Shown here one piece after another: positions 13,396 through 39,621 of a stretch of DNA of 64,000 nt. The notes under the pieces are model-generated. The model saw only the letters and a program-made list of their open reading frames with translations, did not search any database and had not been told where the DNA came from. This DNA is from Gordonibacter urolithinfaciens (GTDB taxonomy: Bacteria > Actinomycetota > Coriobacteriia > Coriobacteriales > Eggerthellaceae): assembly GCF_900199375.1 (NCBI RefSeq), contig NZ_LT900217.1, positions 2,976,001-3,040,000 of the forward strand, read 5' to 3'. The position numbers and the translations under genes are program-made. Every line of letters starts with the position of its first letter. The first letter of the stretch is position 1.

Positions 13396-14658
13396 ATGGA
13401 AGCACGAAGGCCGTCATCGGCGAGGAGCTGGATCGTCACGCTCGTGGGAATGCTGGCTGCAGTGGCCATCGCCATCAACATGTTCAAGGTGCCGCCCACC
13501 ATGGGGCTGCTCATGGCCGACCTGGGGATCGGGCCGGCGCTGGGAGGCTGGCTCATGACGGTGCCCACCGTCACGGGTCTCGTGCTCGCGCTGCCGTCGG
13601 GCGGGCTCACCGACAGGTTCGGCCCGAAGAAGGTGGGCCTGTTCGCCATCCTCTCGGCGGCGGTGGGCAGCCTGATAGGGTCGTTCGCGCCGAATATCGA
13701 GCTCTTGCTGTTCAGCCGTTTCGTGGAGGGCCTGAGCTTCGCGCTGATCGGCGTGGCCGTGCCGGCTATCATCGCCATGTGGTTCCCGCCCGAGAAGAGC
13801 GGCGCGCCCATGGCCATCTGGTCGGGGTGGGTGCCCATCGGCATGCTCGCCATCTTCACGGGGGCCAACCTGTTCATCGCGGCCGACGACCCCGGCACGT
13901 GGACGAACGTGTGGTGGCTCTCCACGGCGCTGCTCGTGGCGGCCGCCGTGCTGTACCTGGTATTCGTGAAGGCGCCCGACGGCTACGCGGCGGAGGATGC
14001 GCCGAAGATATCGCTGGTCGCGGGCATGAAGTCGCCCTCCACGTGGCTGTTGGCCGTGGTGTTCGCCATGTTCGCGTTCATCATGTACGCCGTGTCCACG
14101 TTCGCGCCCACGTACTGCATGGAGGAGCTGGGCTACAGCCTGGAGGATTCCAACCTGTACTCGAGCCTTATCACGGTGGGCATGATCTTGGGCGTGGTGC
14201 TCATGACGCCCGTGCTCAACAAGGTGGTGAGGCTGAAGAGCCGCATCTGGCTGCTCGTGGCCAGCATGGTGCTCACGGCGCTCATCGCCATCCTGGCCTT
14301 TAACGTGCCGCCGCAGGCCACCGTGGCCGTCATGATCGTCACCGGCATCGTGCTGCAGCTCGTGCCGGCCGTCATCTGGCCCATCGCGCCGTCGGCTGCC
14401 GTGGCGCCCGTCTACATCGGCACGACGTTCGGCGTCATCGCGCTCGGCCGCTCCATCGGCGGGTTCGGCAACGCGTCCATCGGCACGCTCATCGAGACGT
14501 CCGGCTGGGGCGCGGCCATCATGCTGCTCGTGGGCATCGGCATCGTGGGCGTGGCGGCCTGCCTGGCGCTGCTCAAGTTCCTGAAGGACCCGGCCGAGGC
14601 GGCGGCGTCCGCCGACGCGCCCGCGGATCCGGCCGAGGCGGAAACCGCCAGTCGCTAG
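13396..14658 (+). CDS. MFS transporter of Moco cluster 1
   Basis: Twelve-helix major facilitator carrier, 420 aa, inner membrane. The start has a strong site (GAAGGAGGGGTTT-ATG). The signature loop 2-3 motif is visible as GGLTDRFGPKKVG near residue 75. It is clearly related to the interrupted carrier at 42861-45449 (shared TADLGIG / LMADLGIG, GGL-DRFGPK-VG) and to the carrier at 34703-36088. It lies 33 bases upstream of the catalytic subunit and is probably co-transcribed, so its likely job is import of that enzyme's substrate or export of its product. A TAGGA-CCT-TCCTA inverted repeat at 13237-13249 lies in the 165-base leader and could be an operator. Confidence 0.9.
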   Translation: MEARRPSSARSWIVTLVGMLAAVAIAINMFKVPPTMGLLMADLGIGPALGGWLMTVPTVTGLVLALPSGGLTDRFGPKKVGLFAILSAAVGSLIGSFAPNIELLLFSRFVEGLSFALIGVAVPAIIAMWFPPEKSGAPMAIWSGWVPIGMLAIFTGANLFIAADDPGTWTNVWWLSTALLVAAAVLYLVFVKAPDGYAAEDAPKISLVAGMKSPSTWLLAVVFAMFAFIMYAVSTFAPTYCMEELGYSLEDSNLYSSLITVGMILGVVLMTPVLNKVVRLKSRIWLLVASMVLTALIAILAFNVPPQATVAVMIVTGIVLQLVPAVIWPIAPSAAVAPVYIGTTFGVIALGRSIGGFGNASIGTLIETSGWGAAIMLLVGIGIVGVAACLALLKFLKDPAEAAASADAPADPAEAETASR

Positions 14659-14691: not shown

Positions 14692-16929
14692 ATGGAGGAG
14701 CGAGACTACCGGTTCGTGAAGCACGAGAATCCCTACACGTACCGGGACGGCGACCTGACGGTCACGCGCGGGAGCGCTTGGTCGGGACCGGGGTGCCACC
14801 TGGGCTGCGGCGTGCTGCTCTACACCAACGACGAGGGAGAGCTCGTGAAGGTGGAGGGCGATCCGGAGAACCCGTTCAACGAGGGGCGCCTGTGCGTGCG
14901 CTGCCTGGATTTGCCCGAGATGGTGAACAACCCGAAGCGCCTCACGCATCCGCTGCGCCGCGCGAAGGCCGACCGCGGCCGCGACCGCTGGGAGCGCATC
15001 GGCTGGGACGAGGCGCTCGACCTCATCGCCTGTGAGCTCAACAAGGTGAAGGAGGAGCACGGTCCCGAGTCCGTTATCTTCTCGTGCGGCACCGGGCGCG
15101 ACATCGCGCCGTACATCACGCGTCTGTGCTGGTCGTTCGGCTCGCCGAACTTCGTGAACATCTTCTCCGGCAACGCGTGCTACCTGCCGCGCGTGGCCGG
15201 CTGCATCGCCACCACGGGCGCGTTCTGGGTGGCCGACTGCGCCCAGCAGTTCCCCGACCGCTACGACAACCCCGCATGGCGGATGCCCGAGACCATGTTC
15301 GTGTGGGGCAACTACCCGCTCATCGCGAACTCCGACGGCTTCTTCGGCCACTGGGTGGTGGACCTCATGAAGCGCGGCATGAAGATCGTTATGATCGACC
15401 CCAAGGTCACGTGGCTCTCCGCCAAGGCCGAGGTGCACCTGCCGGTGCGCCCGGGCACCGACGCGGCGCTGGCGCTCGCCATGATGAACGTGATCATCGG
15501 CGAGGACCTGTACGACCACGACTTCGTCGACCGCTGGTGCTACGGTTTCGAGGAGCTGCGCGAGCATGTGCAGCCGTTCACGCCCGAGTACGCCGAGACC
15601 ACCACGTGGGTCCCGGCCGAGCGCATCCGCAAAGCCGCGCGCATCCTGGCGGCGAGCAAGCCCGCGACGCTGCAGTGGGGCGTGGCGGTGGACATGACGA
15701 AGGAGGCGCTGCCGGCCGGGCAGGCCATCATGGCGCTCTTCCAGGTGACGGGCAACGTGGAGGTGCCCGGCGGCATCATCGTGCCGCCCGAGATCCTGAA
15801 CTACGGCGGCGGCTGGGGCTTCGAGCTTCTGGGCGACGAGCAGAACGAGAAGCGCCTCGGCCTGGACAAGTACTCGCTGTTCCGCCTGGGCTTCCAGGCG
15901 GCGCACCCCAACACCACCGTCGAGGCCATGAAGACGGGCGAGCCGTACCCCATCAAGGCCGCCTGGGTGCAGACGTCGAACTTCCTGGCCTGCATGTCCG
16001 CGAACTCCACGGAGGTGGCGGAGTGCTTCCGCAAGCTGGACTTCGTGGCCGGCGCCGACCTGTTCATGACGCCCACTATCATGGCGTTCTACGACGTGGT
16101 GCTGCCGGCGGCCATGTTCCCCGAGCGCGACGGGGTGCGCCTGGGAGACGGCGCGCAGCGCGCCGAGGCCATCAACAAGGTGTGCCAGGTGGGCGAGTGC
16201 AAGTCCGACATGGAGATGAACCTGGAGCTGGGCCGTCGCCTGGCCCCCGAGGCGTGGCCGTGGGACAACGTGCAGGACATGTTCACCGAGATGATCGCCA
16301 CCTCCGGCATCACGTTCCCCGAGCTGCGCGAGGCGGCGCCCGTGTACCTTCCTTTCGAGTACAAGAAGCACGAGAAGGGGCTTTTGCGCCCCGACGGCAG
16401 CCCCGGGTTCTACACGGCCACGGGCCGCATCGAGCTCTGGTCGACGTACTACCAGAACGCCGGGCTCGACCCGCTGCCCGTGTTCGACGAGCCTTCTCCT
16501 GGCCCCCTGGCCACGCCGGAGCTTCTGGACGAGTACCCGCTCGTGCTGTGCACGGGCGCGCGCCGCTGGCCGTTCTTCCATTCGGAGCATCGCCAGGCCA
16601 AGCGCCTTCTGGCCATGCACCCCGACCCGTGGATCGAGATCCATCCCGAGACGTGCGCGCGCTTGGGCGTGGCGGACGGCGACTGGGTGTGGGTGGAGAA
16701 CATGCTCGGGCGCGCGAAGCGCCGCGTGAAGGAGACGCCCATCTTCGACCCGCGCATCGTGGCGGCCGACCACGGCTGGTGGAACCCCGAGGGCGACCCC
16801 GAGAACCTCTACGACATCGGGGACCTGTGCATCAACAACCTCATACCCTGGGGCAACGGCAAGAGCGGCTTCGGCGGAAACTACAAGACGAACCTGTGCA
16901 AGGTGTACAAGATGAAGGAGGGCGAGTGA
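14692..16929 (+). CDS. Molybdopterin oxidoreductase catalytic subunit, cluster 1
   Basis: DMSO-reductase superfamily enzyme, 745 aa, with no Tat or Sec signal, so cytoplasmic. The N-terminal Fe-S site is C35-x3-C39 (GCHLGCG) and C68-x2-C71 (LCVRC) instead of the usual C-x2-C-x3-C-x(n)-C. The Mo ligand is inferred to be Cys163 in GNACYLPR, by position relative to the Cys/Sec of formate dehydrogenases. Molybdopterin-binding blocks follow: GDPENPFNEGRLC, VWGNYPLIANSDG, DPKVTWLSA, RPGTDAALALAM, and the C-terminal LCTGARRWPFFHSEHRQ. The size, lack of a signal and companion MFS and small subunit fit the group of pyrogallol transhydroxylase and Eggerthella catechol dehydroxylases. The exact substrate is unknown. 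Confidence 0.9.
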   Translation: MEERDYRFVKHENPYTYRDGDLTVTRGSAWSGPGCHLGCGVLLYTNDEGELVKVEGDPENPFNEGRLCVRCLDLPEMVNNPKRLTHPLRRAKADRGRDRWERIGWDEALDLIACELNKVKEEHGPESVIFSCGTGRDIAPYITRLCWSFGSPNFVNIFSGNACYLPRVAGCIATTGAFWVADCAQQFPDRYDNPAWRMPETMFVWGNYPLIANSDGFFGHWVVDLMKRGMKIVMIDPKVTWLSAKAEVHLPVRPGTDAALALAMMNVIIGEDLYDHDFVDRWCYGFEELREHVQPFTPEYAETTTWVPAERIRKAARILAASKPATLQWGVAVDMTKEALPAGQAIMALFQVTGNVEVPGGIIVPPEILNYGGGWGFELLGDEQNEKRLGLDKYSLFRLGFQAAHPNTTVEAMKTGEPYPIKAAWVQTSNFLACMSANSTEVAECFRKLDFVAGADLFMTPTIMAFYDVVLPAAMFPERDGVRLGDGAQRAEAINKVCQVGECKSDMEMNLELGRRLAPEAWPWDNVQDMFTEMIATSGITFPELREAAPVYLPFEYKKHEKGLLRPDGSPGFYTATGRIELWSTYYQNAGLDPLPVFDEPSPGPLATPELLDEYPLVLCTGARRWPFFHSEHRQAKRLLAMHPDPWIEIHPETCARLGVADGDWVWVENMLGRAKRRVKETPIFDPRIVAADHGWWNPEGDPENLYDIGDLCINNLIPWGNGKSGFGGNYKTNLCKVYKMKEGE

Positions 16930-16930
16930 C

Positions 16931-17272
16931 ATGGCGGAATACGGGCTGCTGGTGGATTACGAGTGGTGCACGGGATGCCATTCGTGCGAGATGGCGTGCG
17001 CGGTGGAGCATGGGTTCCCGCAGGGCCAATGCGGCGTGGCGGTGTGCGAGGTGGGGCCGTGGAGCTACGGGCCCGAGAACGACCGCTGGCAGGTGGGCTA
17101 CCAGCCGGCGTTCACCGACCAGTGCGACCTGTGCGCCGCGCGCACGGCGGCGGGCGGCGTGCCCACGTGCGTGAAGCACTGCCAGGCGAAGTGCCTGGAG
17201 TACGGCCCGCTCGACGAGCTGGCGGGCAGGCTGGGCGCCAAGGCGAAGCAGGCGCTCGTGGCGCTGGGCTGA
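16931..17272 (+). CDS. 4Fe-4S ferredoxin-like electron-transfer subunit, cluster 1
   Basis: Small partner subunit (113 aa) that passes electrons to the Moco enzyme. The first cluster motif is C13-x2-C16-x2-C19-x3-C23 (CTGCHSCEMAC), and the second set is CDLC...CVKHCQAKC, nine cysteines in all. That is shorter than DmsB/PhsB, which carry four clusters. The ATG comes one base after the catalytic subunit stop (GAGTGACATG), with the GGAGGG inside the upstream gene, so translation is coupled. There is no membrane segment and no membrane anchor gene nearby, so the electron donor is probably a soluble ferredoxin or flavoprotein. Confidence 0.9.
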   Translation: MAEYGLLVDYEWCTGCHSCEMACAVEHGFPQGQCGVAVCEVGPWSYGPENDRWQVGYQPAFTDQCDLCAARTAAGGVPTCVKHCQAKCLEYGPLDELAGRLGAKAKQALVALG

Positions 17273-17339: not shown

Positions 17340-17393
17340 AGGGCTGCTGCGGCGCGAGGCGGCAGGGCGATGGGACGGCGAAGGAGGTTGGCG

Positions 17394-17573
17394 ATGCGGG
17401 ATGGGAAGGAAGACGGCCCGTCCGTCGACGCGACAACGGGGGCGACCGTGTGCGGGGCCCTTCAGGAGGCGGGGCGCCGCGTTCTCGGGGAACGGGGCGC
17501 CCCTCGGGCGGTCCCTCCGGGAGCGACGTCGGAAGAACTGTTAGAATATGCTTGTGATCAGGTAAAACAATGA
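17394..17573 (+). CDS. 59-aa TGAT-motif microprotein preceding LuxR, cluster 1
   Basis: No recognised family. ATG 17394 has an ideal ribosome site (GAAGGAGGTTGGCG). The protein has a charged start, then DATTGATVCGALQEAGRRVL, a proline/glycine stretch, and an acidic end (TSEELLEYACDQVKQ). DATTGAT matches the Dx-(S/T)GA(T/S) motif where ApbE attaches FMN in NqrC/RnfG-type proteins, but the rest of an FMN_bind domain and any export signal are missing. The equivalent gene in cluster 2 (34320-34592) carries the motif twice and also lies immediately upstream of a membrane LuxR gene. Function unknown; it might sense or carry a flavin, or be a small regulator of the LuxR protein. Confidence 0.6.
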   Translation: MRDGKEDGPSVDATTGATVCGALQEAGRRVLGERGAPRAVPPGATSEELLEYACDQVKQ

Positions 17574-17659
17574 GGTAGCGACTCAGGTTAGCCCGTCGCT
17601 CGCGCCTTGCGCCGCCTCGGCGGCGCTCGGTGCGGCGGCCTTGCAGAAGGGGGTGCGAG

Positions 17660-19156
17660 GTGAAGGAGCGGAAACCGAAGGGGCGCGTCTCGCGCGCGTT
17701 GCACGGTCTTGCCGGCGGCCGGGGAGCGTCTGCCGACTCGCTCGTGCATGAATGGCAGGTGCTTCCGACCGTTGCGGTGTCGTGCTATTGGATATGGCTG
17801 TACCTCGCCTACTCGCTCGACGTGTTCGTGGTCTCCTCGGACGCGTTCGTGCGTTTCGACATCCTGCAGAAGGGGTTCGGCTTCCTGGGGGCCGCGCTCT
17901 TCATGGCGGCCGTGTCGCTGCTGCGCACGGCCTCGTTCTTCGAGCGCACGCCGTTCCTGGCGCTTTTCTCCGCGGCCTCCGGTGCGTCGATCGTCGTCGC
18001 GTCAGCGCTCGCGCGCGCCGGCGTGCCCGTGGCGTTCCCGGTGGTGCTGGCCGTGTGGCTGCTCATGGGCGCCGGCACGGCGGCGGCGTTCCTGCGCCTC
18101 TTCAGCGGTTTGCAGGATGCGGGGCAGGGGAGGTTCTGCGCCGTGAACGCGCTTGCGCTCTTCCTCTCGGGGTTCTTCTACCTGCTTCTGCTGGGCCTGC
18201 AGGACGGCATCCGGCTCGTGCTGACGGTGTTCGTGGTGTGCATCGCGGCCTTCGCGCCGCTGCGCCCGCCCGGGGAGGCCCCGGGCGCCGCTCGCGCCCC
18301 TTCCGCGCGCGGGGACGTGCCGTCGCCGGAGGCCGGCAACGCGGCGGTGGCGGCGCTCCTGAGCTTCCGCGGCGAGCTGTTCCTGTTGAGCGTGGTGTTC
18401 GGCCTGGCGTACTGCCTGGGCATATCGCTCAGCATCATGTCGAACAGCTTGGAGTTCATCTGGCTGTCGCTGTGCGTGCCCGGCATCTTCCTCGTGCTGT
18501 ACAGCGTGCTCCTGAAGGACCGCGTGTCCGTGCGCGTGCTCCTGACGCTCCTGTTCCCCATTGCGGCGTTCTTACTGCTCCTGCTCCCGTTCAGCAACCC
18601 TTTCGGGCTCGTGCTGTGCTGCAGCCTGCTGGTCATGTGCTTCACCACCTACGACGTGCTCAACGTGGTGCGGTTGCGCGAGATCATCGCGGTCAACCGG
18701 CTGCCGGAGGCGAAGTCGTGGGCGACGGGGCGCTACCCGCAGCTTGCGGGCCTCGTGCTGGGATGGGCCGCGGGCTACGGCATGCTGATGACCGACGACG
18801 CGCTCAGGGTGCTGCTGCCGGCCGTGTGCGTAGGGCTGGTGGTGGCCATCGTGGCCATGCTCACGCGCTATGTGTGGAGGTACAGCGACGCGGCGGGCGG
18901 GTCTGCCCATGTGCCGGAGGAGACGGTGGGGCGCGTGCACGACGCCATCGTGCTGCGTTACGGCCTGTCGCCGCGCGAGCGCGAGGTCATGGAGCTCTTG
19001 GTACGCGGCTACAGCACCGATCGCATCGGCAAGGACCTGCACATCTCGTACCACACGGTCAAGACGCACGTGTACCACATCTACCAGAAGGTGGGCGTGC
19101 ACGCCCAGCAGGAGCTCATCGACCTGGTGGAGGAGCGCTTGCGCCTCATGCGCTGA
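17660..19156 (+). CDS. Membrane-spanning LuxR-family transcriptional regulator, cluster 1
   Basis: 498 aa from GTG 17660 (AAGGGGGTGCGAG just ahead). About twelve hydrophobic helices fill residues 25-410. The C-terminal LuxR-type helix-turn-helix (about 430-495) reads LSPREREVMELLVRGYSTDR then HISYHTVKTHVYHIYQKVGV. Proteins of this build form a large family in Coriobacteriia, and some are known to activate catechol dehydroxylase genes in Eggerthella lenta. It probably senses the small molecule handled by cluster 1 through its MFS-like membrane part and switches on the 13396-17573 genes. It lies 86 bases after the microprotein gene. Confidence 0.9.
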   Translation: MKERKPKGRVSRALHGLAGGRGASADSLVHEWQVLPTVAVSCYWIWLYLAYSLDVFVVSSDAFVRFDILQKGFGFLGAALFMAAVSLLRTASFFERTPFLALFSAASGASIVVASALARAGVPVAFPVVLAVWLLMGAGTAAAFLRLFSGLQDAGQGRFCAVNALALFLSGFFYLLLLGLQDGIRLVLTVFVVCIAAFAPLRPPGEAPGAARAPSARGDVPSPEAGNAAVAALLSFRGELFLLSVVFGLAYCLGISLSIMSNSLEFIWLSLCVPGIFLVLYSVLLKDRVSVRVLLTLLFPIAAFLLLLLPFSNPFGLVLCCSLLVMCFTTYDVLNVVRLREIIAVNRLPEAKSWATGRYPQLAGLVLGWAAGYGMLMTDDALRVLLPAVCVGLVVAIVAMLTRYVWRYSDAAGGSAHVPEETVGRVHDAIVLRYGLSPREREVMELLVRGYSTDRIGKDLHISYHTVKTHVYHIYQKVGVHAQQELIDLVEERLRLMR

Positions 19157-29015: not shown

Positions 29016-29375
29016 CTACGCGCAGGGCGGCACCCACAGGTACTGCTGCGGCTTGGCGTCCAAGCGCTTCGCGAGCTCGTCCACCGGGCCGAACTCCATG
29101 CACTTGGCCTGGCAGTGGAACACGCAGGAGGGGAGCTTGCCCTTCTCCTGGCGGTCGGCGCACAAATCGCAGATCTTCGTGAACGCCGGGATGAAGTCGT
29201 AGACGTAGTTGTCCGTCTCGTTGCCTTCGGCGTCCTTCACCGGCCACGGGCCGTTCTGCATGACCTTCACGCCCCACTGCTCGAGCGGTAGCTCGTGCTC
29301 GGCCTGGCAGGCCACCTCGCACGAGTAGCACCCCGTGCAGTACTGGTAGTCGACGAGAATTCCGTTGAGAGCCAT
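29016..29375 (-). CDS. 4Fe-4S ferredoxin-like electron-transfer subunit, cluster 3
   Basis: 119 aa. The start ATG 29375 overlaps the catalytic subunit stop as TAATG, so it is translationally coupled. The first cluster motif is CTGCYSCEVAC, and the second set is CDLC...CVFHCQAKC. It ends in a Trp/Pro tail (QYLWVPPCA) with a tenth cysteine. It has the same build as the small subunits at 16931, 39249 and 57839, with a slightly longer middle (NETDNYVYDFIPAFTK). It relays electrons to the Moco subunit; it is soluble. Confidence 0.91.
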   Translation of the reverse strand: MALNGILVDYQYCTGCYSCEVACQAEHELPLEQWGVKVMQNGPWPVKDAEGNETDNYVYDFIPAFTKICDLCADRQEKGKLPSCVFHCQAKCMEFGPVDELAKRLDAKPQQYLWVPPCA

Positions 29376-31753
29376 TACAGTTCCTCCTCCTTGCAGCGGT
29401 ACACCTTGCAGAGCGTGCACTTCAGGTCGGCACCGAAGCCAGTCGTGCCGGGCTTGTTGGCCAGAAGCTGGTTGATGTTGGACTGGCGGAAGCCGTACAG
29501 GTTGGGTTCGGCGCCGTCCTGTTCGGGGAACCACCAGCCGTGCTGCGCGGCGATCTCCTTCTCGTGCACCTCGAACGTGAGGCGGGCACGCTGGCGGCAG
29601 CGGCCGCGGTGGTTCTCGATCCAGACCCAGTCGCCCTCGGAGATGTTCAGGTCCTTGGCCGTGCGCGGGTGGATCTGCACCCACGGATCGGGTGTGAGCT
29701 GGCGCAGGTAGGGGATCTGGCGGTGCTCCGAGTGGAAGAACGACGTGGTGCGGGCGCCCGTGATCATGATGAGCGGGTACTCCTCGTACAGGTCGGGCGT
29801 GGTGACGGGCCCGATGCCCGGCTCCTCGATGTAGGGCAGCGGGTCGTAGCCGAACTTCTCGAACAGCGTGGAGTAGAACTCGATGCGGCCCGTGGGGGTG
29901 TTGAAGCCGGGCTGGCCGTCGGGGCGCATGAGGCCCTTCTCGTACTTCTTGTACACGTACTTCTGGTAGACCGGGCCGTGCTCCATGAGCTCGTGGAACG
30001 TGAAGCCGGAGGGGCTCACGATCTCGTCGTACACCTCGTCCTCGGTCGCCCACGGCCAGGTGTGCTGCTTGCCCTCGGGGCGGCCGATGGCCTGGTTGAA
30101 CTCGTCGTCGTTGTCGAAGTACTGGGCAAGCTCGCGGTTGATCTCGCAGTCCGACTTCGCCTCGCCCTCGGCCGCGCAGCCGCCCGTGATAGCGGACAGG
30201 AAGTAGTAGTGGGCGCGTACGGAGTGCTTCTCGGCCCACGTCTGCACCGGCATGACGATGTCGGCGCACGACTGGATGGTAGGCGTCATGAAGATGTCCA
30301 CGGCGGCGATGAACTCCGGCTTCTTCATGGCCTGGTACCAGCGCTCGGTCTCGCAGCTCATGCAGGCAATGCCGTTGGATGTCTGGATCCACACGCCCTT
30401 GACCTTGCCCTCCTCCATATACTCCAGGCACATGTCGGGCATGGCCTGGGTGAGGCCGTAGCGGTACATGGGGAATTCTTTCCAGCCCACGCGCTTCTTC
30501 TGCATCTCCTCGTTGATGAGGTCGTAGATGCCCCATGCGCCGGCGGACGGCTGGTCGACGCCCATGGGGGAGGCGGTGTAGCACATGCCGCCCGGCACGT
30601 CGAGGTTGCCGGTGATGGTCCACAGCGCGGCGATGGCGGCGGCGCAGGGCGTGCCCTGGCTCTGCATGTCCACGGCGAGGCCCCACACGACGTTGGCCGG
30701 CTTGGACGTGGCGAACAGGCGCGCAGCGGCGATGATCTTCTCCTTGGGGACCCACGTCATGGCCTCCACCTGGTCCAGCGACAGCTCGCGGGCGCGCTCG
30801 GCCAGCTCGTCGAAGCCGTAGGTCCAGCGCTCCACGAAGTCATGGTCGTAGAGGTCCTCGTCGATGATGACCTTGATCATGCCGAGAGCGAGGCCCGTGT
30901 CGGTGCCGGGGCGCAGCTGCAGATGGATGTCGGCGTGCGCGGCGAGCCAGGTGACGCGCGGCTCGACGGAGATGAGCTTGCAGCCGAGCTTCATGGCGTC
31001 GGTGACCCAGTGTCCCATGAAGAAGTCGGGGTTGGAGATGGTGGGGTTGCAGCCCCAAACGATGGTGCACTCGGGGCACACCCACTCGGGGTCGTCGTAG
31101 CGCAGCGCCGAGAACTGCGAGAAGTCGGCGATGAGCATGCCGCCGTAGGTCATGATCATGAGCGACAGGCGGGGCAGGTAGCAGGCGGTGCCGGACAGGA
31201 AGCCGTACTCGTTGGGGCTGCCGAACGTGTTCGCCATGCGGCCGACCTGCCACTGGTTGTCGCGTGCGGTGCCGCGCAGGCAGTGGATGGAGTCGCCGCC
31301 GTAGGTCATGGAGATGCGACGGAATTCCTTGTAGCAGGTTTCCAGCGCCTCGTCCCACGTGATGCGCTCCCACTGGCCGCTCCCGCGCTCGCCGGCACGC
31401 TTCATGGGGTGCAGGATGCGGTCGGGGTGGAACTCCACCTGCTTGAAGGCCAGGCACCTCGGGCACAGCGCGCCGCGGTTGTACGGGTCGTCCGGGTCGC
31501 CCTCGCACTTGATGAACTTGCCGGTCTCCTTGTCGGAGTACACCAGCACGCCACAGCCCTCGTGGCAGCCCGGCGCGCTCCACACCGAGGTGCGGGTGAC
31601 CACCATGCCGTCCTCCTCGTACTGGAAGGGCTTCGGATGCTTCCAGCGAGGATCCACTTCCTGCCTCTTGCCGGCGCCGAAGTTGAACTGGTTCTCCTCC
31701 TTGGACGTGCCGATCTCGTCGCGGTCCTTCTCCGCGACAGCGTTCTCTACCAT
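29375..31753 (-). CDS. Molybdopterin oxidoreductase catalytic subunit, cluster 3
   Basis: 792 aa from ATG 31753 (GAGAGGAGTTGCG ahead). There is no export signal; it starts with a charged 40-residue extension. The Fe-S site has the same reduced form as in cluster 1: GCHEGCG and LCPRC. The likely Mo ligand is the Cys of GTACYLPR. Other Moco-binding blocks: GDPDDPYNRGALC, VWGCNPTISNPDF, EPRVTWLAA, RPGTDTGLALGM, and MITGARTTSFFHSEHRQIPY near the C-terminus. It is closest in layout to the catechol dehydroxylase / pyrogallol transhydroxylase group. No transporter is in this cluster, so its substrate may enter through a carrier encoded elsewhere. Confidence 0.9.
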   Translation of the reverse strand: MVENAVAEKDRDEIGTSKEENQFNFGAGKRQEVDPRWKHPKPFQYEEDGMVVTRTSVWSAPGCHEGCGVLVYSDKETGKFIKCEGDPDDPYNRGALCPRCLAFKQVEFHPDRILHPMKRAGERGSGQWERITWDEALETCYKEFRRISMTYGGDSIHCLRGTARDNQWQVGRMANTFGSPNEYGFLSGTACYLPRLSLMIMTYGGMLIADFSQFSALRYDDPEWVCPECTIVWGCNPTISNPDFFMGHWVTDAMKLGCKLISVEPRVTWLAAHADIHLQLRPGTDTGLALGMIKVIIDEDLYDHDFVERWTYGFDELAERARELSLDQVEAMTWVPKEKIIAAARLFATSKPANVVWGLAVDMQSQGTPCAAAIAALWTITGNLDVPGGMCYTASPMGVDQPSAGAWGIYDLINEEMQKKRVGWKEFPMYRYGLTQAMPDMCLEYMEEGKVKGVWIQTSNGIACMSCETERWYQAMKKPEFIAAVDIFMTPTIQSCADIVMPVQTWAEKHSVRAHYYFLSAITGGCAAEGEAKSDCEINRELAQYFDNDDEFNQAIGRPEGKQHTWPWATEDEVYDEIVSPSGFTFHELMEHGPVYQKYVYKKYEKGLMRPDGQPGFNTPTGRIEFYSTLFEKFGYDPLPYIEEPGIGPVTTPDLYEEYPLIMITGARTTSFFHSEHRQIPYLRQLTPDPWVQIHPRTAKDLNISEGDWVWIENHRGRCRQRARLTFEVHEKEIAAQHGWWFPEQDGAEPNLYGFRQSNINQLLANKPGTTGFGADLKCTLCKVYRCKEEEL

Positions 31754-32273: not shown

Positions 32274-32275
32274 TT

Positions 32276-32605: not shown

Positions 32606-34066
32606 CTAGTCCTCCACCGGGAACTCCTCCACGAAGTCCATGAGCTTCTGCTGGGAGTGGATGTCGAGCTTGCGGTAGATGCTGTAGATGTGGCTCTTCA
32701 CCGTGTGGGGCGATATGGTGAGCTTGCCCTGGATGTAGGCGGCGTTGCGCCCCTTCGCCAGGAACTTCAAGATATCGGTCTCGCGCGGGGAGAGCTGGTA
32801 GAGCTCGGCCACGGCGGCGCAGCGGCGCTCGAAGAGCTCCTTCTCGCTAAGGTTGGACGGCACGGGAGCGGCGGGTTCGCGGGCGCCGATCGTCCCGCCG
32901 TCTGGCGCATGGTGCTCTTTCGAGGGGAAGAACAGCATGACCACCGCAACGAGCACGAACGCCATGCATAGGCGCACGATCATGAACGCGTCGGAATGGG
33001 CACCGTAGGCCATGGTCATGCCCGTGGCCACGCCCCAGCCCACGAGGAAGCCCAGCGCGCTGAACACGAGGCGCGCTGGCGCCTGGCGGAACACCGGCGT
33101 GTCCCAGCGTTCGACGCTCTTCTTCACGATGAACGCGTAGTTCACCGATACGAACGCCGCCCACGACGCCACGACCAGGCACGAGCATGCCAGCTGGATG
33201 GCCTCGGTGGCGAAGGGCATGGAGAGGCATGCCAGCACGGTGATGCACAGCAACACGCGCTGGATGACGGTGATGCCCACGGCTTTGCCCGAAAGCGCGA
33301 GCACGGCGATCAAGCCGGCACCGGGTATCACGAACAGAAGGCCCACGAGCACGTCTTGCTGGCCTGAGTTGAACAGGTACACGAACGTCAGGCCGAACAC
33401 GATGCCGAACGCCACGAGCGAGGGTTCTATCTCCCAGGTGAACTCCCAGGTGTTCTTGCACGAGCCGGCGGGGGGCGCATCGGCGTTGCCTTCGGCTCGC
33501 TCGCCGGCGAAACGGAGGAGGCCGACGCTAAGCAGCGCATAGACGATGCAGAACACGGGCTGTACGGCCTCGGGAACGATGGCGGCGAGGACGAACAGCG
33601 CCCCGCCGCCCACGAGCGACAGGCTCGTGAAGCGAGGAAAGCTCTTCACCCTGATACGGCTGCTCGCATCGAGCCAGCTCACCGTCAGCGATGCGCCGCC
33701 CAGGCCCGCGCAAAGGTTCACGACGCACAGCACTGGGGAGGGTACGTCCACGCCGAGGCCCAGAAACAGGGCGGCGATGGGCAAGAGCAGCGCCAGCGCA
33801 GCATCGGTCGCAAGCGCGGACAGCCTGAACGGATCGAACCGGGAGTTCTTGGCAAGAAGGTGCAGGGACAAATATCCCAGTGCCAGACCTGCGAAAACGA
33901 ATAACTGGATGGCGTCGCGCTCGGCTACGGGGGTGTCCTGGATGAACTCGGCGAAAAGCCAATAGTACGATACGAGCATCCACCCGAAAAAGCAGGAGAA
34001 CCCGCCGATCCCCAGCAGCTCCATGGCGCCGATGCGGCGCATGTCCACGGTCTTGCCGTCGTCCAT
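32606..34066 (-). CDS. Membrane-spanning LuxR-family transcriptional regulator, cluster 2
   Basis: 486 aa from ATG 34066. About twelve membrane helices occupy residues 15-395. A Pro/Ala linker (ADGGTIGAREPAAPV-type) leads to the C-terminal LuxR helix-turn-helix: LSPRETDILKFLAKGRNAAY then TISPHTVKSHIYSIYRKLDI. It has the same architecture as the protein at 17660 with diverged sequence, so each likely reads a different signal. It is the last gene of the long minus-strand cluster 2 and probably its activator. A possible -10 (TATACT, minus strand, 34178-34183) in the 253-base spacer suggests it also has its own promoter. Confidence 0.9.
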   Translation of the reverse strand: MDDGKTVDMRRIGAMELLGIGGFSCFFGWMLVSYYWLFAEFIQDTPVAERDAIQLFVFAGLALGYLSLHLLAKNSRFDPFRLSALATDAALALLLPIAALFLGLGVDVPSPVLCVVNLCAGLGGASLTVSWLDASSRIRVKSFPRFTSLSLVGGGALFVLAAIVPEAVQPVFCIVYALLSVGLLRFAGERAEGNADAPPAGSCKNTWEFTWEIEPSLVAFGIVFGLTFVYLFNSGQQDVLVGLLFVIPGAGLIAVLALSGKAVGITVIQRVLLCITVLACLSMPFATEAIQLACSCLVVASWAAFVSVNYAFIVKKSVERWDTPVFRQAPARLVFSALGFLVGWGVATGMTMAYGAHSDAFMIVRLCMAFVLVAVVMLFFPSKEHHAPDGGTIGAREPAAPVPSNLSEKELFERRCAAVAELYQLSPRETDILKFLAKGRNAAYIQGKLTISPHTVKSHIYSIYRKLDIHSQQKLMDFVEEFPVED

Positions 34067-34319
34067 CTGATTCCCCCCGCAGTGCCCGGCTTGAACGTCG
34101 TTGGAGAAACTGAGCACGATCGGCGCGGCCTGCCGGACACCGATTCAGGACGCGGACCCCAACATCTCCGGAACCTCAGTATACATCAAAAGGAGAGCGA
34201 GAGGGCCGTTCCGGCGCAGGCGGAGAGCCGCTCCCTATAGTTTGCCGACGGTCGGAAGCAGGGCAAGCTCCATCAGATGCGCATGCGTGCCCGTCGGCAC
34301 AGGGAGCCGTCCGCCGCCC

Positions 34320-34592
34320 TCAGGCTACCCCCGGCGGCTTGATCCCGCGTTCGCGAACGACGCTGTCCACCGACGACATGCCCAGCTCGCGGCATGCGCT
34401 GGCAACGCCGGGGGTGGCGCCGGTGACGGCGTCGGCATCGCAGGTGCCCGGAGGCGGGCAGGGGGGAGGCGCCGCCGGAGCGCCTCCGTGCTGGCCGGGG
34501 TCGAGGGCGGCCGCCGCATCGGCCAGGCTCGTGGCGCCCGTGACGGCGTCGGGCTGTTCCCCCGGTTGGTCGTTCATGCGCTTCTCGTACAT
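34320..34592 (-). CDS. 90-aa microprotein with two DAVTGAT motifs, cluster 2
   Basis: Not a recognised family. ATG 34592 has GAAGGAAACC ahead. DAVTGAT occurs at residues 15-21 and 54-60, separated by a Pro/Gly/Ala linker; the C-terminus (MSSVDSVVRERGIKPPGVA) is mixed. The motif is that of FMN-threonine attachment (Dx-TGAT) in FMN_bind proteins, but no complete domain and no signal peptide are present. Position is conserved: like the 59-aa protein at 17394, it lies directly upstream of a membrane LuxR gene in a Moco operon. It may be a flavin carrier or a partner of the LuxR sensor. Confidence 0.65.
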   Translation of the reverse strand: MYEKRMNDQPGEQPDAVTGATSLADAAAALDPGQHGGAPAAPPPCPPPGTCDADAVTGATPGVASACRELGMSSVDSVVRERGIKPPGVA

Positions 34593-34702: not shown

Positions 34703-36088
34703 TTATGCGGCCGCCGGGCGTCCTTCGCCCATCGGACCGTCCGAGCGTGCTGTATCCTGCGCGGCGTCCTCGTCTTCCTCGAACACCGGCGGCTTCATGG
34801 CCACGTAGACGATCCACAGCAGCGTGCCCACGGCCGCCGTGGCCGCGCAGAGCGGCGCCACGTTGGTCCATACCTGGGCCTCGCCTATGATATAGCCCAC
34901 CACCGGCGTGCACAGAAGGTTCGAGATGCCCTGGAAGAAGATGATGATGGCCATGCCCACCGGCATGGTCACGCGCTTGGGCATGGTCACGGGCACCATC
35001 GACCACACCACGCCGCTCGTCCAGCCGCTCTCGAGGCCCAAGAGCACCAGATAGGCGGGCAGGTACTCGTAGGGAACCAGGAACGCGCCCACGTAGAAAA
35101 ACGCGCAGAACCCCGCGATGATCACCATGACGTTGCGCGCCTTAAGCGTCTGGAACTTCCCCAGCAGGAAAGCCGTGACCAGCGCCATGGGGATGGAGGC
35201 CGCGAAGCCGAGCGAGGCCATGGATCCGCCGGACACGCCGGCCTGTGCCTGAGCGGCGGCAAGGTCCATGCCTTCTGCCAGCATGCGTTCCAGCTCCACG
35301 CCCTGCACGTAGGTGGGCACCCAGGTGAGCACCGAGAGCGAGGTGAACATGAGGAAGCAGAACCCCAGGCCGAACAGCCACATGCGCTTCACCTTGAATC
35401 CCTCGAGCAGGATGGCGGCGGGGCGGTGCTGCTTCTCGCCCGTCTCCCGCTCGCGCTTGGCGGCCACGCCGCGCCCGGCATGCGGCACGCTCACGAACAG
35501 CGCGAACACCACGAAGGACACGAGGGCGAGCACGTCGGAGAACCACCACCAGGCATGCCAGTTGGTCGGGTCTCCCGTGAGCGCGAGCGCCACCGGCACG
35601 CCGATGTTGTAGGCGAGCGTGGAACCCACGACGTACCACAGGTTCCAGATGCCCATGGGAAGCCCCGCCTTCTCGCGGGGGAAGTACATGGAGATGACGG
35701 TGGTGGCCACCACGCCCATCATGGCCACGCCGATGCCCTCGAGCACGCGTCCTGCGATGAGCTGCGCGAACGAGTATGACAGCGCGCCCACGGCGCATCC
35801 GGCCACCATGAAGGCCAGGCCCACGAGGCCCACGCGCTTCGGGCCGAAGCGGTTGAGCAGGAACGCCGAGGGGAACGCGGTGATAATGCCGGCCACGGCG
35901 ATGACCGACATGAGCCAGCCGGTGGTGCCCGGATCGGTCCCGAAGTCGTGCATGAGGGCGCCCATGAACGTGGGCACCTTGAACTGGTTCATAATGACGA
36001 TGATGCCGCAGAACAGCAAGGCGAAGAGCACGATCCAGCCCTTGCGCTGGCGGTTGCGGGCCACGTCGTTTTGATGGTTGTTGCTCAT
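34703..36088 (-). CDS. MFS transporter, cluster 2 (distal)
   Basis: 461 aa, twelve membrane helices. The start is ATG 36088 with GAAGGG ahead. The loop motif is AFLLNRFGPKRVG, and there is a conserved stretch NQFKVPTFMGALMHDFGTDPG after helix 1. It belongs to the same group as the carriers at 13396 and 42861 (VMN-FKV start of the first loop). A long central cytoplasmic loop (KREREGEK-type charged stretch) and an acidic C-terminal tail are present. It may take up the Moco enzyme substrate or export the product. It lies 190 bases after the next MFS gene on the same strand. Confidence 0.88.
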   Translation of the reverse strand: MSNNHQNDVARNRQRKGWIVLFALLFCGIIVIMNQFKVPTFMGALMHDFGTDPGTTGWLMSVIAVAGIITAFPSAFLLNRFGPKRVGLVGLAFMVAGCAVGALSYSFAQLIAGRVLEGIGVAMMGVVATTVISMYFPREKAGLPMGIWNLWYVVGSTLAYNIGVPVALALTGDPTNWHAWWWFSDVLALVSFVVFALFVSVPHAGRGVAAKRERETGEKQHRPAAILLEGFKVKRMWLFGLGFCFLMFTSLSVLTWVPTYVQGVELERMLAEGMDLAAAQAQAGVSGGSMASLGFAASIPMALVTAFLLGKFQTLKARNVMVIIAGFCAFFYVGAFLVPYEYLPAYLVLLGLESGWTSGVVWSMVPVTMPKRVTMPVGMAIIIFFQGISNLLCTPVVGYIIGEAQVWTNVAPLCAATAAVGTLLWIVYVAMKPPVFEEDEDAAQDTARSDGPMGEGRPAAA

Positions 36089-36279: not shown

Positions 36280-37749
36280 TTAGTGCTGTGCGGCTGCCTC
36301 GTCTGCGGGTTTGCCGGCGGGAGCGCTCGCGGCCTGCTTCTTAGAGGGCTTCACGCCGAAGGCGAGTAGGATGCCCACGATGCTCACGGGCACGAGCGCA
36401 TACACGGCAAGCATAGGGTCGACGTGGATACCAGCGGCGGCGGCCTCCTGGGCCGCTTGTGCGATGGCGGGGCCGAAGTCGGCCGGGGTGCCGCCGGAAG
36501 CGAGCACGGCCTGCTTGGCCTCGATGGCCACATTGGAGGCGGCGGTCAGCGTGTCGCTGAACGGATGCATGACGTAGCTCGTGAACATCTGGCCCGCGTA
36601 CTGGCCCAGCGTCAGGAACGACAAGCCGAAGGCCACGGCCGTGGCGCCGCCCTTGAACACGAGCGTCGGCACGAGCGGGCGGCAGCAGGCATTGAGCAGC
36701 ATGTTGCCGGCGCAGAAGAACACGACGTAGGGGAGGAAGAACGTGACCTGCGAGAACGTGGCGGATGCGAGCGCCAGGAACAGGATGCCCACCACGACGC
36801 AGAGGTACTTCTTATCCCTGGGCGTCTTGTCGAGGATCAAGCCGCCGATGGGGGCCAGCGCGCCGCACGCGCAGATCAGGCCGCCCCACAGGCCGGCGGC
36901 CGCCGCATCCCAGCCCAGGCCGCCCAGCAGCTCGGGGGTTTGCATCCAGGTCTTCAGGTACTGGCTGAAGCCGTAGTTGACGTAGTTGTAGATGGCGAAC
37001 ATGAGGATCAGGCACCACAGCTGGCGGCTCTTGAAGAACGGAAGGACCTCTTTGAAGGACTTGCGCTCGGGAGACACCTGCGACCGCTCGTTCTCGCGCG
37101 GCTCGCGGAACACGATGGCGAAGATCACGGCGAACACGACGATGACAGCGACCCAGATCCACTGGAACGCCACCATGTCGCTGCCCGCCATCTCGAACAC
37201 GTTGTTGCCGATGAAGTTGATGACGAAGATGCCCACGGGCGCCCAGATGGACCAGATGGCCATGGCGCGCCCGCGCGTGGCATCGGGGAACCACACCGAC
37301 ACGCAGGTGGGGCCTGCGACGATGGTGGTGGCCAGGGCCACGCCCAGAATGAAGCGCCCCACGAGGAACGCGTAGAAGTTGTCGCCCACGAAGACGGCGC
37401 TCACGGCCGTGCCGACGGCGCCGAGCGCGAGGCCGGCGACGGTCGCGGCTTTCGGGCCGATCTTGCGCACCAGGTACGAGGCGGGCAGGGCCATGATCAG
37501 CGCGCCGATAGGCACGAGGCCCATGACGTTCGACATCAGCTCGAAGTTGGCCGGGTTGGCGAACAGCGCGTTGTTCTCGGCCAGCCAGTTCTTGAACACC
37601 GGGAACGTGATGCCCGGCAGCCACTGCCAGGCGAAGACCAGCGCGATGCCGGCCAGGACCGACGTGATGAGGCATGGCCAGGCGTACGACGGCGTCTTCT
37701 CAACAGGTTTGGCTTCCCTTGCCGCTACGGCGGCATTCGGATTGCTCAT
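36280..37749 (-). CDS. MFS transporter, cluster 2 (proximal)
   Basis: 489 aa, twelve membrane helices. ATG 37749 has AGAGGGG ahead. The loop motif is SYLVRKIGPKAATVAG. It is more distant from the other MFS proteins here and has longer periplasmic segments near residues 30-55 and 390-430. It lies 85 bases after the amidohydrolase gene. Two carriers in one cluster suggest one imports the substrate and the other exports the product or a decarboxylated derivative. Confidence 0.87.
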   Translation of the reverse strand: MSNPNAAVAAREAKPVEKTPSYAWPCLITSVLAGIALVFAWQWLPGITFPVFKNWLAENNALFANPANFELMSNVMGLVPIGALIMALPASYLVRKIGPKAATVAGLALGAVGTAVSAVFVGDNFYAFLVGRFILGVALATTIVAGPTCVSVWFPDATRGRAMAIWSIWAPVGIFVINFIGNNVFEMAGSDMVAFQWIWVAVIVVFAVIFAIVFREPRENERSQVSPERKSFKEVLPFFKSRQLWCLILMFAIYNYVNYGFSQYLKTWMQTPELLGGLGWDAAAAGLWGGLICACGALAPIGGLILDKTPRDKKYLCVVVGILFLALASATFSQVTFFLPYVVFFCAGNMLLNACCRPLVPTLVFKGGATAVAFGLSFLTLGQYAGQMFTSYVMHPFSDTLTAASNVAIEAKQAVLASGGTPADFGPAIAQAAQEAAAAGIHVDPMLAVYALVPVSIVGILLAFGVKPSKKQAASAPAGKPADEAAAQH

Positions 37750-37834: not shown

Positions 37835-38893
37835 CTACAGGTTGAACAGCTTCGCCGCGTTGCCGCCCAGCATGAGGTCCTTCTCCTCCTGCGTGACGTC
37901 GAGGGCCTTCACCGAGCCCACCGAGCGGGCCATCCACTCGTAGAACACGGGGAACGAAGAGCCCAGAAGCAGGTGGTCGGCGCCGCACGTCTTCACGGCG
38001 AGCTCGAGCTGGTCCTTGCTCCAGCTCATGGGGTGCGTCATGTCGAAGTAGATGTTGTTGGCTAGGTAGCGGTCGTACGCCTCGCGGTCGACGTTGGTGG
38101 CCAGGCGGTTCATAGCCTCCTTCTTCTTCACCGACACGTGCGGGGCGAGCAGGTCCTTGAGCGCGAACCAGTTGCCGCCGAACATCGTGTGGATGAACTT
38201 GAGGTCGGGGAACTCGTCGAACATGCCCGAGTACACCTCGCGGCCCACTGCGGTGGCCTGCACGTGGATACGGCCGAGCTCGCGTCGCAGGGGCGTGTAG
38301 TCGGCGAAGTTGCCGAACGAGTTCTGTCCGGGCGTATGGTGGATGGCGCAGGGCACCTTCTTGTCGTTGAGCACCTTCAGGTAGGGCTTGAACAGCTCGT
38401 CGTCGAGGAACTTGTCGCCGTAGCAGCAGGCGAATTGCACGCCCACCATGCCGAGGTCGCCCAGGCAGCGCTCCAGCTCGTAGATATCCTCCTTGCGGCC
38501 CCACGGCGGCAGCACGGCGTTGGCGTACAGGCGCCCTTCCGACTGACGGCACATCTCGGCGGCCTGGTCGTTCACGATCTTGCACATGTCGAGCGGCAGC
38601 CATTCCTGCCACACCGGCATGCGCAGAAGCGCGATGTCAACGCCCACCTCGTCCATGGCGCGGAGCTTCGTCTCCAGCGTGTAGTCGCCCTCCACGTAGT
38701 TCAGGATGTCCTTGCCGTCCTCGGTGGCAAGCACGATCTGGTCCTTGGCGCCGTCGGGCGTCTTGCCGCGGTAGGCCTTGAGCCCCATGGTGATGGGGGC
38801 GGAGTACAGAAAGCCGTTGAGCACCTCCTCGTTCGTGAACAGGTCGGTGGGCAGGAAGTGCATGTTGATGTCGATGACCTTGTTGTCTGCCAT
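37835..38893 (-). CDS. Amidohydrolase-2 family protein (ACMSD-like decarboxylase fold) with altered metal site
   Basis: 352 aa TIM-barrel protein of the group with ACMSD and gamma-resorcylate decarboxylase, which decarboxylate aromatic or muconate acids using one metal ion. The barrel begins VIDINMHFLP where active relatives have H-x-H; here it is Asn10-Met-His12. His186 (AIHHTPG) and His235 (FIHTMFGGNW) are kept. The late metal-binding Asp of GSDYP is replaced: LLGSSFPVF, Ser312-Ser313. So two of four metal ligands appear lost. Either it binds metal differently, works without one, or is a binding protein. In the middle of a Moco operon it may act on the same phenolic acid. Confidence 0.87.
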   Translation of the reverse strand: MADNKVIDINMHFLPTDLFTNEEVLNGFLYSAPITMGLKAYRGKTPDGAKDQIVLATEDGKDILNYVEGDYTLETKLRAMDEVGVDIALLRMPVWQEWLPLDMCKIVNDQAAEMCRQSEGRLYANAVLPPWGRKEDIYELERCLGDLGMVGVQFACCYGDKFLDDELFKPYLKVLNDKKVPCAIHHTPGQNSFGNFADYTPLRRELGRIHVQATAVGREVYSGMFDEFPDLKFIHTMFGGNWFALKDLLAPHVSVKKKEAMNRLATNVDREAYDRYLANNIYFDMTHPMSWSKDQLELAVKTCGADHLLLGSSFPVFYEWMARSVGSVKALDVTQEEKDLMLGGNAAKLFNL

Positions 38894-38979: not shown

Positions 38980-39177
38980 TTACCGGTAGATCGGTGTAAC
39001 TTCGCGCTCCGCGATCTTCTTCATGTTGGCGCCGCAGCGGTCCTTCCAGTCGATGCGGCCCTGCTCGCGTTCGAGCTCGGTGACCGAGCGGCTGAAGTCG
39101 CGCGTCAGGTGAACGTCGACGTTCATCAGCTTCTCGGCGATCCTCCCGCCGAAATCGTCCTCGAATCTCTGGGCCAT
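38980..39177 (-). CDS. 65-aa protein of Moco cluster 2
   Basis: Not recognised. ATG 39177 has a very strong ribosome site (GAAGGAGGACGGAC). It is charged and soluble, probably helical: MAQRFEDDFGGRIAEKLMN, then RSVTELEREQGRIDWKDRC, ending VTPIYR. One cysteine, no metal motif. It sits between the Fe-S subunit and the amidohydrolase with a hairpin on either side. It may be an accessory subunit of either. Confidence 0.72.
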   Translation of the reverse strand: MAQRFEDDFGGRIAEKLMNVDVHLTRDFSRSVTELEREQGRIDWKDRCGANMKKIAEREVTPIYR

Positions 39178-39248: not shown

Positions 39249-39593
39249 CTACGCCTCGTTGATGGCGACGATCATCTGCTTCTCGCGGTCGACCTTCTTC
39301 GCGAGGTCCTCCACGTCTCCCCAGTCCAGGCACTGGGCCTGGCAGTGCTGCACGCACGTGGGCTGCTTGCCCTTGCCCACGCGCTCGGCGCACAGGTCGC
39401 ACCACTTGGTGAACTGGGGGATGAAGTCGTACTGGTAGTCCTTCTTGGCCTCGTCGATGTGCAGCGGGCCCAGCTTCGTGATCTTCAGGCCGAACTGCGC
39501 CTCGGTGTAGCCGTGTTCCTGCTGGCAGGCCAGCACGCACGCCTCGCAGCCGGTGCAGTAGTCGACGTCGACCAAAATTCCCTGGTAAGCCAT
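39249..39593 (-). CDS. 4Fe-4S ferredoxin-like electron-transfer subunit, cluster 2
   Basis: 114 aa. ATG 39593 (MAYQGILVD) has AAAGGATGAG ahead. The first cluster motif is CTGCEACVLAC, and the second set is CDLC...CVQHCQAQC. It lacks a membrane helix. It lies 28 bases after its catalytic subunit, so it is less tightly coupled than in clusters 1 and 3. It shares VDYxxCTGC near residue 10 and the YDFIP-FTK middle with the cluster 3 subunit. Confidence 0.91.
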   Translation of the reverse strand: MAYQGILVDVDYCTGCEACVLACQQEHGYTEAQFGLKITKLGPLHIDEAKKDYQYDFIPQFTKWCDLCAERVGKGKQPTCVQHCQAQCLDWGDVEDLAKKVDREKQMIVAINEA

Positions 39594-39621
39594 GTCTCTC
39601 ATCCTTTCCGTCGCGCGGCTG

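Follow-up and report, generated by a model that had tools for sequence, protein, structure and literature searches.

We analyzed a 64,000-nucleotide stretch of the genome of Gordonibacter urolithinfaciens (contig NZ_LT900217.1, positions 2,976,001 to 3,040,000), hereafter the window, in which two very small genes encode the microproteins P0001 and P0002, both carrying ApbE-type flavinylation motifs of the form DxxTGAT. The original prediction had placed here an open reading frame (ORF) of 59 amino acids with one DATTGAT and another of 90 amino acids with two DAVTGAT, and both were found at those positions.

17394..17573, + strand: type A microprotein P0001, 59 amino acids, one DATTGAT; homologues in G001 and G004
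17427..17447, + strand: DATTGAT of P0001, an ApbE-type flavinylation motif, with PPG about 23 residues on
34320..34592, - strand: type B microprotein P0002, 90 amino acids, two DAVTGAT; homologues in several genera
34530..34550, - strand: first DAVTGAT of P0002, located by the DNA motif pattern
34413..34433, - strand: second DAVTGAT of P0002, inside the conserved C-terminal module DxxTGATPGVxxAC...GIKPPG

Each ORF lies directly 5' of a LuxR gene on the same strand, whose product has a C-terminal GerE/LuxR domain (E=4.9e-17 next to P0001 and 2.4e-13 next to P0002). The ATG of P0001 at 17394 is preceded, at a distance of 6 bases, by the Shine-Dalgarno-like sequence AAGGAGG (17381-17387), and AGAAGG stands a short way ahead of the ATG of P0002. 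The DNA pattern for DxxTGAT occurred three times in the window, every time inside one of these two ORFs, whereas 100 shuffles gave 0.14 occurrences on average and never as many as 3. The codon-usage gene caller missed both genes as well as some real genes in other genomes, and the neighborhoods described below were therefore rechecked by tblastn.

The two proteins had been thought to be dissimilar apart from the motif. This did not hold, because its D, G, A, and T and a later PPG are invariant in both, and P0001 and P0002 thus belong to one conserved protein family defined by the module DxxTGAT-(20-30 amino acids)-PPG. The residues D, G, A, T, P, P, and G were invariant across 16 aligned modules, and a profile built from these was searched over 137 genomes of the taxonomic family. 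We obtained 32 matches at E<=6e-8 (the best at an E of about 1e-21), distributed over 23 of the 137 genomes and 10 of 48 genera; the open frames that contain them are 49 to 273 amino acids long. Neither this recurrence nor the motif conservation described below refuted the prediction. The next matches set in only from E=3e-4 on, and five of the seven of these that we opened (L106-L110) look by eye like FMN_bind proteins. The members comprise three types, A (3 loci), B (16 loci), and D (13 loci), and the microproteins range from 59 to about 190 amino acids. One further type D gene, in G040 from another family of the order, was the sole strong match outside the family among 396 genomes of the class. 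The table of motifs and neighbors used below holds 32 loci, namely, 31 of the 32 strong profile matches and G040; G100, which the search expression missed, was read separately, giving 33 loci altogether.

Pattern searches gave a similar picture. DxxTGATPGV matched in 12 of 138 genomes and its reversed control in none, and a scan of the genome contig collection with the type B pattern returned 17 loci, 16 of them under Coriobacteriia names, with carriers including Gordonibacter pamelaeae, Gordonibacter sp. 28C, Ellagibacter isourolithinifaciens, and Adlercreutzia murintestinalis. The remaining one, an "Actinomycetes" match (L296), was set aside as chance by eye, being a TGATPG stretch in an apparent exported substrate-binding protein. 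Likewise rejected were weak class-wide matches in G265 and G055, which look like chance, and in G036, which looks like FMN_bind. A profile search of PDB gave no match at E<=1, nor did five members have any in NCBIfam at the same threshold. In Gordonibacter pamelaeae 7-10-1-b, unread bases fall within the type B gene (L064:9858-10370), the first half of which is unreadable.

The motif proved to be the conserved part of the family. In the last motif copy of the 32 loci, D, G, and A were present in all 32, position 4 was T in 27, S in 3, and A in 2, and position 7 was T in 28 and S in 4; the residue that would accept flavin mononucleotide (FMN) is therefore always a hydroxyl residue. The published minimal ApbE motif comprises seven residues, D-x-x-[S/T]-G-A-[S/T], and 30 of the 32 last copies agree with it; the motif by itself is a sufficient tag, with a terminal position working best, and replacing its G or A lowered flavinylation, whereas a change of D to A had a minor effect, as reported in the available text of PMC12052999. 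Besides, differences between codons were concentrated at the third position, both in type B (0.56, versus 0.30 and 0.24 at the first and second positions; 16 sequences) and in type D (0.40, versus 0.26 and 0.26; 10 sequences), with mostly two to four codons in use for the invariant residues. This codon evidence, which is what supports translation of the genes, indicates that selection acts at the protein level in types B and D.

In part of the family the motif is present more than once: among the 16 loci of type B, 8 carry two strict copies and one carries four, and the type D protein of G004 has three. In Ellagibacter (L287), the tandem octapeptides DATTGATV-HATTGATV-DAMTGATV-DATSGATH lie upstream of the C-terminal module; they use different synonymous codons, and one of the four has H for D. 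Tandem motifs of this sort also led us to consider a RiPP precursor with repeated cores. In addition, 4 of the 16 type B proteins begin with a Cys-rich part of one or two RCxxCxxCGxC segments (G068, G081, G082, and G131; L042/L055, L043/L056, L044/L057, and L053/L066). The two such members that were tested gave weak Fe-S or zinc matches in Pfam, and the segments may possibly form a metal or Fe-S site.

Both genes stand in clusters for molybdopterin oxidoreductases of the catechol-dehydroxylase type, which contain molybdenum cofactor (Moco) and 4Fe-4S subunits as well as transporters of the major facilitator superfamily (MFS). The features of the two clusters are as follows.

13396..14658, + strand: MFS transporter of the type A operon (PF07690, E=6.7e-41)
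14692..16929, + strand: molybdopterin oxidoreductase (catechol-dehydroxylase type) of the type A operon (PF00384, E=1.1e-26)
16931..17272, + strand: 4Fe-4S beta subunit of the type A dehydroxylase operon (Fer4-type, best E=3.4e-5, just below Pfam cut-offs)
17630..19156, + strand: membrane LuxR-type regulator with an uncertain start (GTG 17630 or later) and the GerE match at E=4.9e-17
29016..29375, - strand: small 4Fe-4S-type subunit of the second type B dehydroxylase (gene call and neighborhood comparison)
29375..31753, - strand: molybdopterin dehydroxylase, second of the type B cluster (gene call; relatives adjoin the microprotein cluster)
32606..34117, - strand: membrane LuxR-type regulator downstream of P0002, with the GerE match at E=2.4e-13
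34703..36088, - strand: MFS transporter directly 5' of P0002 (PF07690, E=1.4e-39)
36280..37749, - strand: second MFS transporter of the type B cluster (PF07690, E=1e-30)
37835..38893, - strand: Amidohydrolase_2 decarboxylase (PF04909, E=1.7e-19), by context a match to the published Eah (PMC12771579, available text)
38980..39177, - strand: conserved 65-amino-acid protein of the type B cluster, with no Pfam match
39249..39602, - strand: small 4Fe-4S-type subunit, matching in tblastn the same gene as the 16931-17272 query
39622..42051, - strand: molybdopterin dehydroxylase, first of the type B cluster (PF00384, E=1.4e-38)

The order of genes is characteristic of each type. Type A loci run Moco subunit, 4Fe-4S subunit, microprotein, and LuxR. 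Type B loci run Moco, 4Fe-4S, the 65-amino-acid protein, amidohydrolase, MFS, microprotein, LuxR, and a second Moco and 4Fe-4S pair, with extra genes between microprotein and LuxR in several genomes and a shuffled order in G068. Type D loci have a divergent LuxR gene followed by Moco, 4Fe-4S, a membrane-like protein of 176 amino acids, and the microprotein. A Moco dehydroxylase gene was present within 11 kb on the same strand at 29 of the 32 loci, or 30 when the whole contig of G102 was read, and at the two without one (G145 and G151) the contigs end too early. LuxR, by contrast, was the immediate downstream gene at just 12 of the 32 loci (3/3 in type A, 9/16 in type B, and 0/13 in type D), and pairing with LuxR as the core of the system was dropped as the constant feature in view of the gene orders of types B and D. 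The constant partner is the molybdenum catechol-dehydroxylase/4Fe-4S operon. Since the loci represent conserved operon lineages, the number of independent associations is about three, kept over about ten genera. As for neighboring genes of these operons, Eah loci numbered 18 in 17 of the 137 genomes, with the microprotein in the same cluster at 14 and two cut by contig ends (G137 and G148), and 13 of 14 close loci of the 176-amino-acid protein have it.

The type B cluster of the window agrees in gene content with the ellagic-acid (eam) cluster of Coriobacteriia, which comprises Eah, Eadh1/2/3, MFS, and LuxR genes (PMC12771579). RNA sequencing of Gordonibacter sp. 28C found 13 genes of that cluster induced more than 1,000-fold (PMC12771579), and we found the microprotein gene in the single Eah cluster of this strain. 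Judging from the gene content and from the single Eah cluster of 28C, the type B cluster of the window presumably corresponds to the published one. The Eadh enzymes are thought to be cytoplasmic and were purified and assayed with the artificial donors methyl viologen and dithionite; the available text names neither a small protein nor a physiological donor of Eadh (PMC12771579). According to the same source, the cluster of Ellagibacter isourolithinifaciens exceeds the Gordonibacter cluster by one dehydroxylase, and two Gordonibacter dehydroxylases have been described as two-component alpha-beta enzymes in the available part of PMC11574389.

We also examined domain matches and the likely location of the proteins, which had been described as having neither a full FMN_bind domain nor an export signal. 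P0001 had no match to FMN_bind (PF04205) and P0002 one at E=0.29 over profile positions 51-63 of 77; four other members gave E=0.057 (G068), none (G131 and L080), and 0.37 (Ellagibacter). L119, the whole open frame of the type D gene of G004, matched FMN_bind at E=3.5e-5 (24.8 bits, above the cut-off of 22), with a best stretch that spans just profile positions 40-66 and touches the motifs, which DUF2271 also touches (E=0.0034, below its cut-off). FMN_bind and DUF2271 are Pfam models of known ApbE substrates. A full-length FMN_bind match above the Pfam cut-off was found in none of these proteins (P0001, P0002, G068, G131, L080, Ellagibacter, and L119), and no signal peptide was seen in the microproteins. 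The highest 15-residue hydropathy was 0.3-1.4 in the tested rows, the Cys-rich protein of G068 alone reaching 1.76. The best reading is that the microproteins are cytosolic. An AlphaFold2 model gave three short helices at low confidence (predicted local distance difference test score [pLDDT] of 64 and predicted template modeling score [pTM] of 0.29), and that of a Cys-rich form (pLDDT, 52) showed low-confidence strands at the Cys-rich segments.

ApbE, which flavinylation would require, was present in 96 of the 137 genomes, that is, in all 23 with a microprotein and in 73 of the 114 without one (hypergeometric p of about 1e-4, kinship ignored; G040 was outside this search). By eye, each of the 23 genomes has at least one ApbE copy without a visible signal peptide, and the genome of the window has a single ApbE, also with no recognizable signal peptide. 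Its sole FMN_bind match at E<=1 is a protein with the appearance of an exported lipoprotein. In three genomes ApbE is encoded close by. In G068 its gene shares the strand of the type B dehydroxylase and lies 0.3 kb upstream of it; in G137 the cluster is followed by ApbE after 1 kb; and in G131 ApbE is the last gene of an adjacent dehydroxylase operon, at the contig edge. About 0.27 such loci would be expected among 16 by chance (p of about 0.003), a rough estimate made after seeing the cases. FMN_bind, the one ApbE substrate fold that this search covered, had no match at E<=0.01 in 9 of 24 microprotein genomes (6 of 15 of good quality), and five of these six good-quality genomes (G025, G068, G081, G100, and G137) were seen to have ApbE. 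Motif conservation, agreement with the published consensus, and the presence of ApbE in 23 of 23 genomes thus lend indirect support to the reading of the motif as an ApbE site.

Several known systems resemble the microproteins in part. FMN_bind proteins (PF04205; NqrC, RnfG, and PplA type), which are flavinylated by ApbE, have the same 7-residue motif, whereas the microproteins lack the rest of the domain and the signal peptide, are of 59 to about 190 amino acids, have a conserved PPG tail of their own, and are tied to molybdenum dehydroxylase operons. Multiflavinylated proteins carry several covalent flavins per protein, as envisaged for the microproteins, but are represented by crystal structures of single FMN-containing domains (PMC10339131), whereas the motifs of the microproteins stand alone or in tandem octapeptides. 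In the engineered Flavin-tag (Tong et al., via PMC12052999), a free 7-residue motif is enough for ApbE; that tag is man-made, and the microprotein family would be its natural counterpart. In Klebsiella both partners are cytosolic, a signal-less ApbE flavinylating the cytoplasmic fumarate reductase (PMC12052999); there the substrate is the enzyme, whereas here it would be a microprotein beside a molybdoenzyme. Our literature search retrieved nothing that pairs ApbE with Gordonibacter or "flavinyl" with "catechol dehydroxylase," and we claim no wider absence. The available portions of PMC8238504 and PMC11585353 contain nothing on such small proteins, and PMC10979944, so far as its available text goes, concerns extracytosolic flavinylation.

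Taken together, the conserved motif and PPG tail of a single family, its recurrence in dehydroxylase operons, and the signal-less ApbE of its carriers lead us to a tentative explanation, to which we give a little less than an even chance: the microproteins may be minimal cytosolic carriers of covalent FMN that feed electrons to soluble dehydroxylases. The working part of the microprotein would be one or more ApbE flavinylation motifs, and a signal-less ApbE would use flavin adenine dinucleotide (FAD) to attach FMN to the last Thr or Ser of DxxTGAT. The conserved stretch past the motif and the PPG tail would hold the flavinylated peptide to its partner, the PPG being part of the docking site, and the peptide would accept electrons from a cytosolic reductant and pass them on to soluble molybdenum catechol dehydroxylases at their 4Fe-4S subunit, the ellagic-acid/urolithin enzymes among them. 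Since a flavin on such a short, weakly folded peptide (pLDDT, 64; pTM, 0.29) would be exposed, the partner enzyme may supply the flavin pocket. Flavinylation of the microproteins in vivo is itself probable, and, should it occur, a role as electron carrier for the dehydroxylase would be rather likely, this role being inferred. Of the two options raised in the original prediction, a covalent-flavin carrier and an input to LuxR, the former is strengthened and is the best one, and the latter is weakened.

A more far-reaching version, possible but doubtful, holds that the microproteins are natural flavin-tag peptides, poly-flavinylated in the cytosol, which serve as dedicated electron donors of the urolithin-forming dehydroxylases in the manner of flexible flavin/metal wires, the bare-motif octapeptide array of Ellagibacter being the extreme and the fusion to Cys-rich CxxCxxCxxC segments in some lineages a variant. 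There is a credible chance that the family represents a new class of natural flavin-tag carriers among ApbE substrates. If so, nature would use a "flavin-tag" without a folded flavin domain, ApbE flavinylation would extend to cytosolic molybdoenzymes, and a testable candidate donor would be at hand for the urolithin-forming, polyphenol-processing dehydroxylases of Gordonibacter, Ellagibacter, and their relatives, gut bacteria acting on plant polyphenols, ellagic acid among them. The genes are small and easily missed.

A number of observations weigh against a flavin carrier for the dehydroxylases. As to the motif, position 4 is A in G115 and G116, position 6 is V in G100, the 33rd locus, and N-terminal copies outside the Ellagibacter array decay to TSAT, TAAT, or TGPT. 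As to the fold, an FMN-binding fold was not predicted by AlphaFold2 (at low confidence), and a bare flavin would therefore, according to the model, be exposed to solvent and its potential hardly controlled. As to the partner, the divergent Eah operons G156:C21 and the second copy G081:C44 are without a microprotein, as is G003:C23 among the close loci of the 176-amino-acid protein, along with three distant loci of that protein; such dehydroxylases can accordingly do without it. The genome of the window has three microprotein genes, and most dehydroxylases are without one; dehydroxylases are reported to exceed 30 per strain (PMC12771579, available text). As to ApbE, 58 of 65 genomes without a microprotein (inspected by eye, out of the 73 with ApbE) also have a signal-less copy, which the proposed reaction would need but which is thus no specific mark. 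Signal-less ApbE moreover has other likely substrates, because in G001 and G003 (L353 and L354) its gene lies beside that of an FMN_bind reductase with a signal like that of twin-arginine translocation (Tat; read in L354), an arrangement that suggests cytosolic flavinylation ahead of export.

The strongest rival, which we consider unlikely but the most serious, is that the microproteins are an unflavinylated third subunit or maturation factor of the dehydroxylase, with DxxTGAT...PPG as a docking peptide whose likeness to an ApbE site is convergent. The dehydroxylase being the constant operon partner, the conservation of the module past the motif, above all of PPG, and the lack of a predicted FMN fold would all fit this, as would SufS/SufE-like genes in three Gordonibacter clusters (Pfam-tested in one) and a TorD-like protein in the cluster, named by eye and with no Pfam match. 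It leaves unexplained, however, the tandem motif array, the strict T or S at the acceptor position, and both the co-occurrence and the linkage with ApbE.

Less probable still is that the microprotein provides the membrane LuxR protein with a redox or ligand input, in which case the peptide, flavinylated or not, would report the redox state to the adjacent regulator. The adjacency in all type A and 9 of the 16 type B loci accords with this, and type D operons have a divergent LuxR gene at their opposite end where the contig reaches. No type D gene precedes LuxR, though, and in type B the two may be separated by an MFS gene (G082), by a 511-amino-acid protein (G004 and G003), or, over a larger distance, by other genes (G001, G002, G145, and G068). 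Besides, membrane LuxR genes, of the kind with 10-12 transmembrane segments, are very numerous, with 83 in one E. lenta strain (PMC9734109, available text), and the microproteins are few; adjacency alone therefore says little. We rejected a regulatory leader peptide (upstream ORF), whose translation rather than product would control the downstream LuxR gene: the short ORFs directly 5' of LuxR in types A and B of the window invite this reading, but the position of type D behind the 176-amino-acid gene, amino acid conservation with free synonymous change, and lengths of 59 to about 190 amino acids make it very improbable. Chance ORFs or a sequence artifact, suggested by the short ORFs that the codon-usage caller did not pick up, have the slightest probability of all, given profile matches with E values as low as 1e-21 that spread over 10 of 48 genera and are set off by a gap from the weaker class, the pattern in 12 of 138 genomes against none in the reversed control, and the codon evidence in types B and D.

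Some further genes of these clusters may be mentioned. SufS-like and SufE-like genes lie within the ellagic-acid cluster at L063:4320-6389 (Aminotran_5, E=4e-113; SufE, E=4e-22), with look-alikes at L064:4391-6466 and L065:11791-13869 and a third unknown gene, in three Gordonibacter genomes. The 511-amino-acid protein belongs to a family that recurs near the microprotein or LuxR (L063:6508-8043 and 2697-4202, L061:3602-5134, and L059:6423-7940) and has no clear Pfam match (Fucose_iso_C, E=0.19). The gene of the 65-amino-acid protein (38980-39177, - strand) lies, in many clusters of type B, after that of the 4Fe-4S subunit and before that of the decarboxylase. Inside the type B cluster of the window, a pair of small ORFs occupies the opposite strand (32022-32569, + strand), with a similar pair at L064:2055-2602; by eye, we take it to resemble toxin-antitoxin genes of the YefM/YoeB type. 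Finally, the gene at 20008-21819 (- strand) encodes a fusion of an arylsulfotransferase-like and a thioredoxin domain (PF05935, E=9.4e-24; PF00085, E=5.4e-15), and the gene adjoining it is, by eye, presumably TrxR-like.

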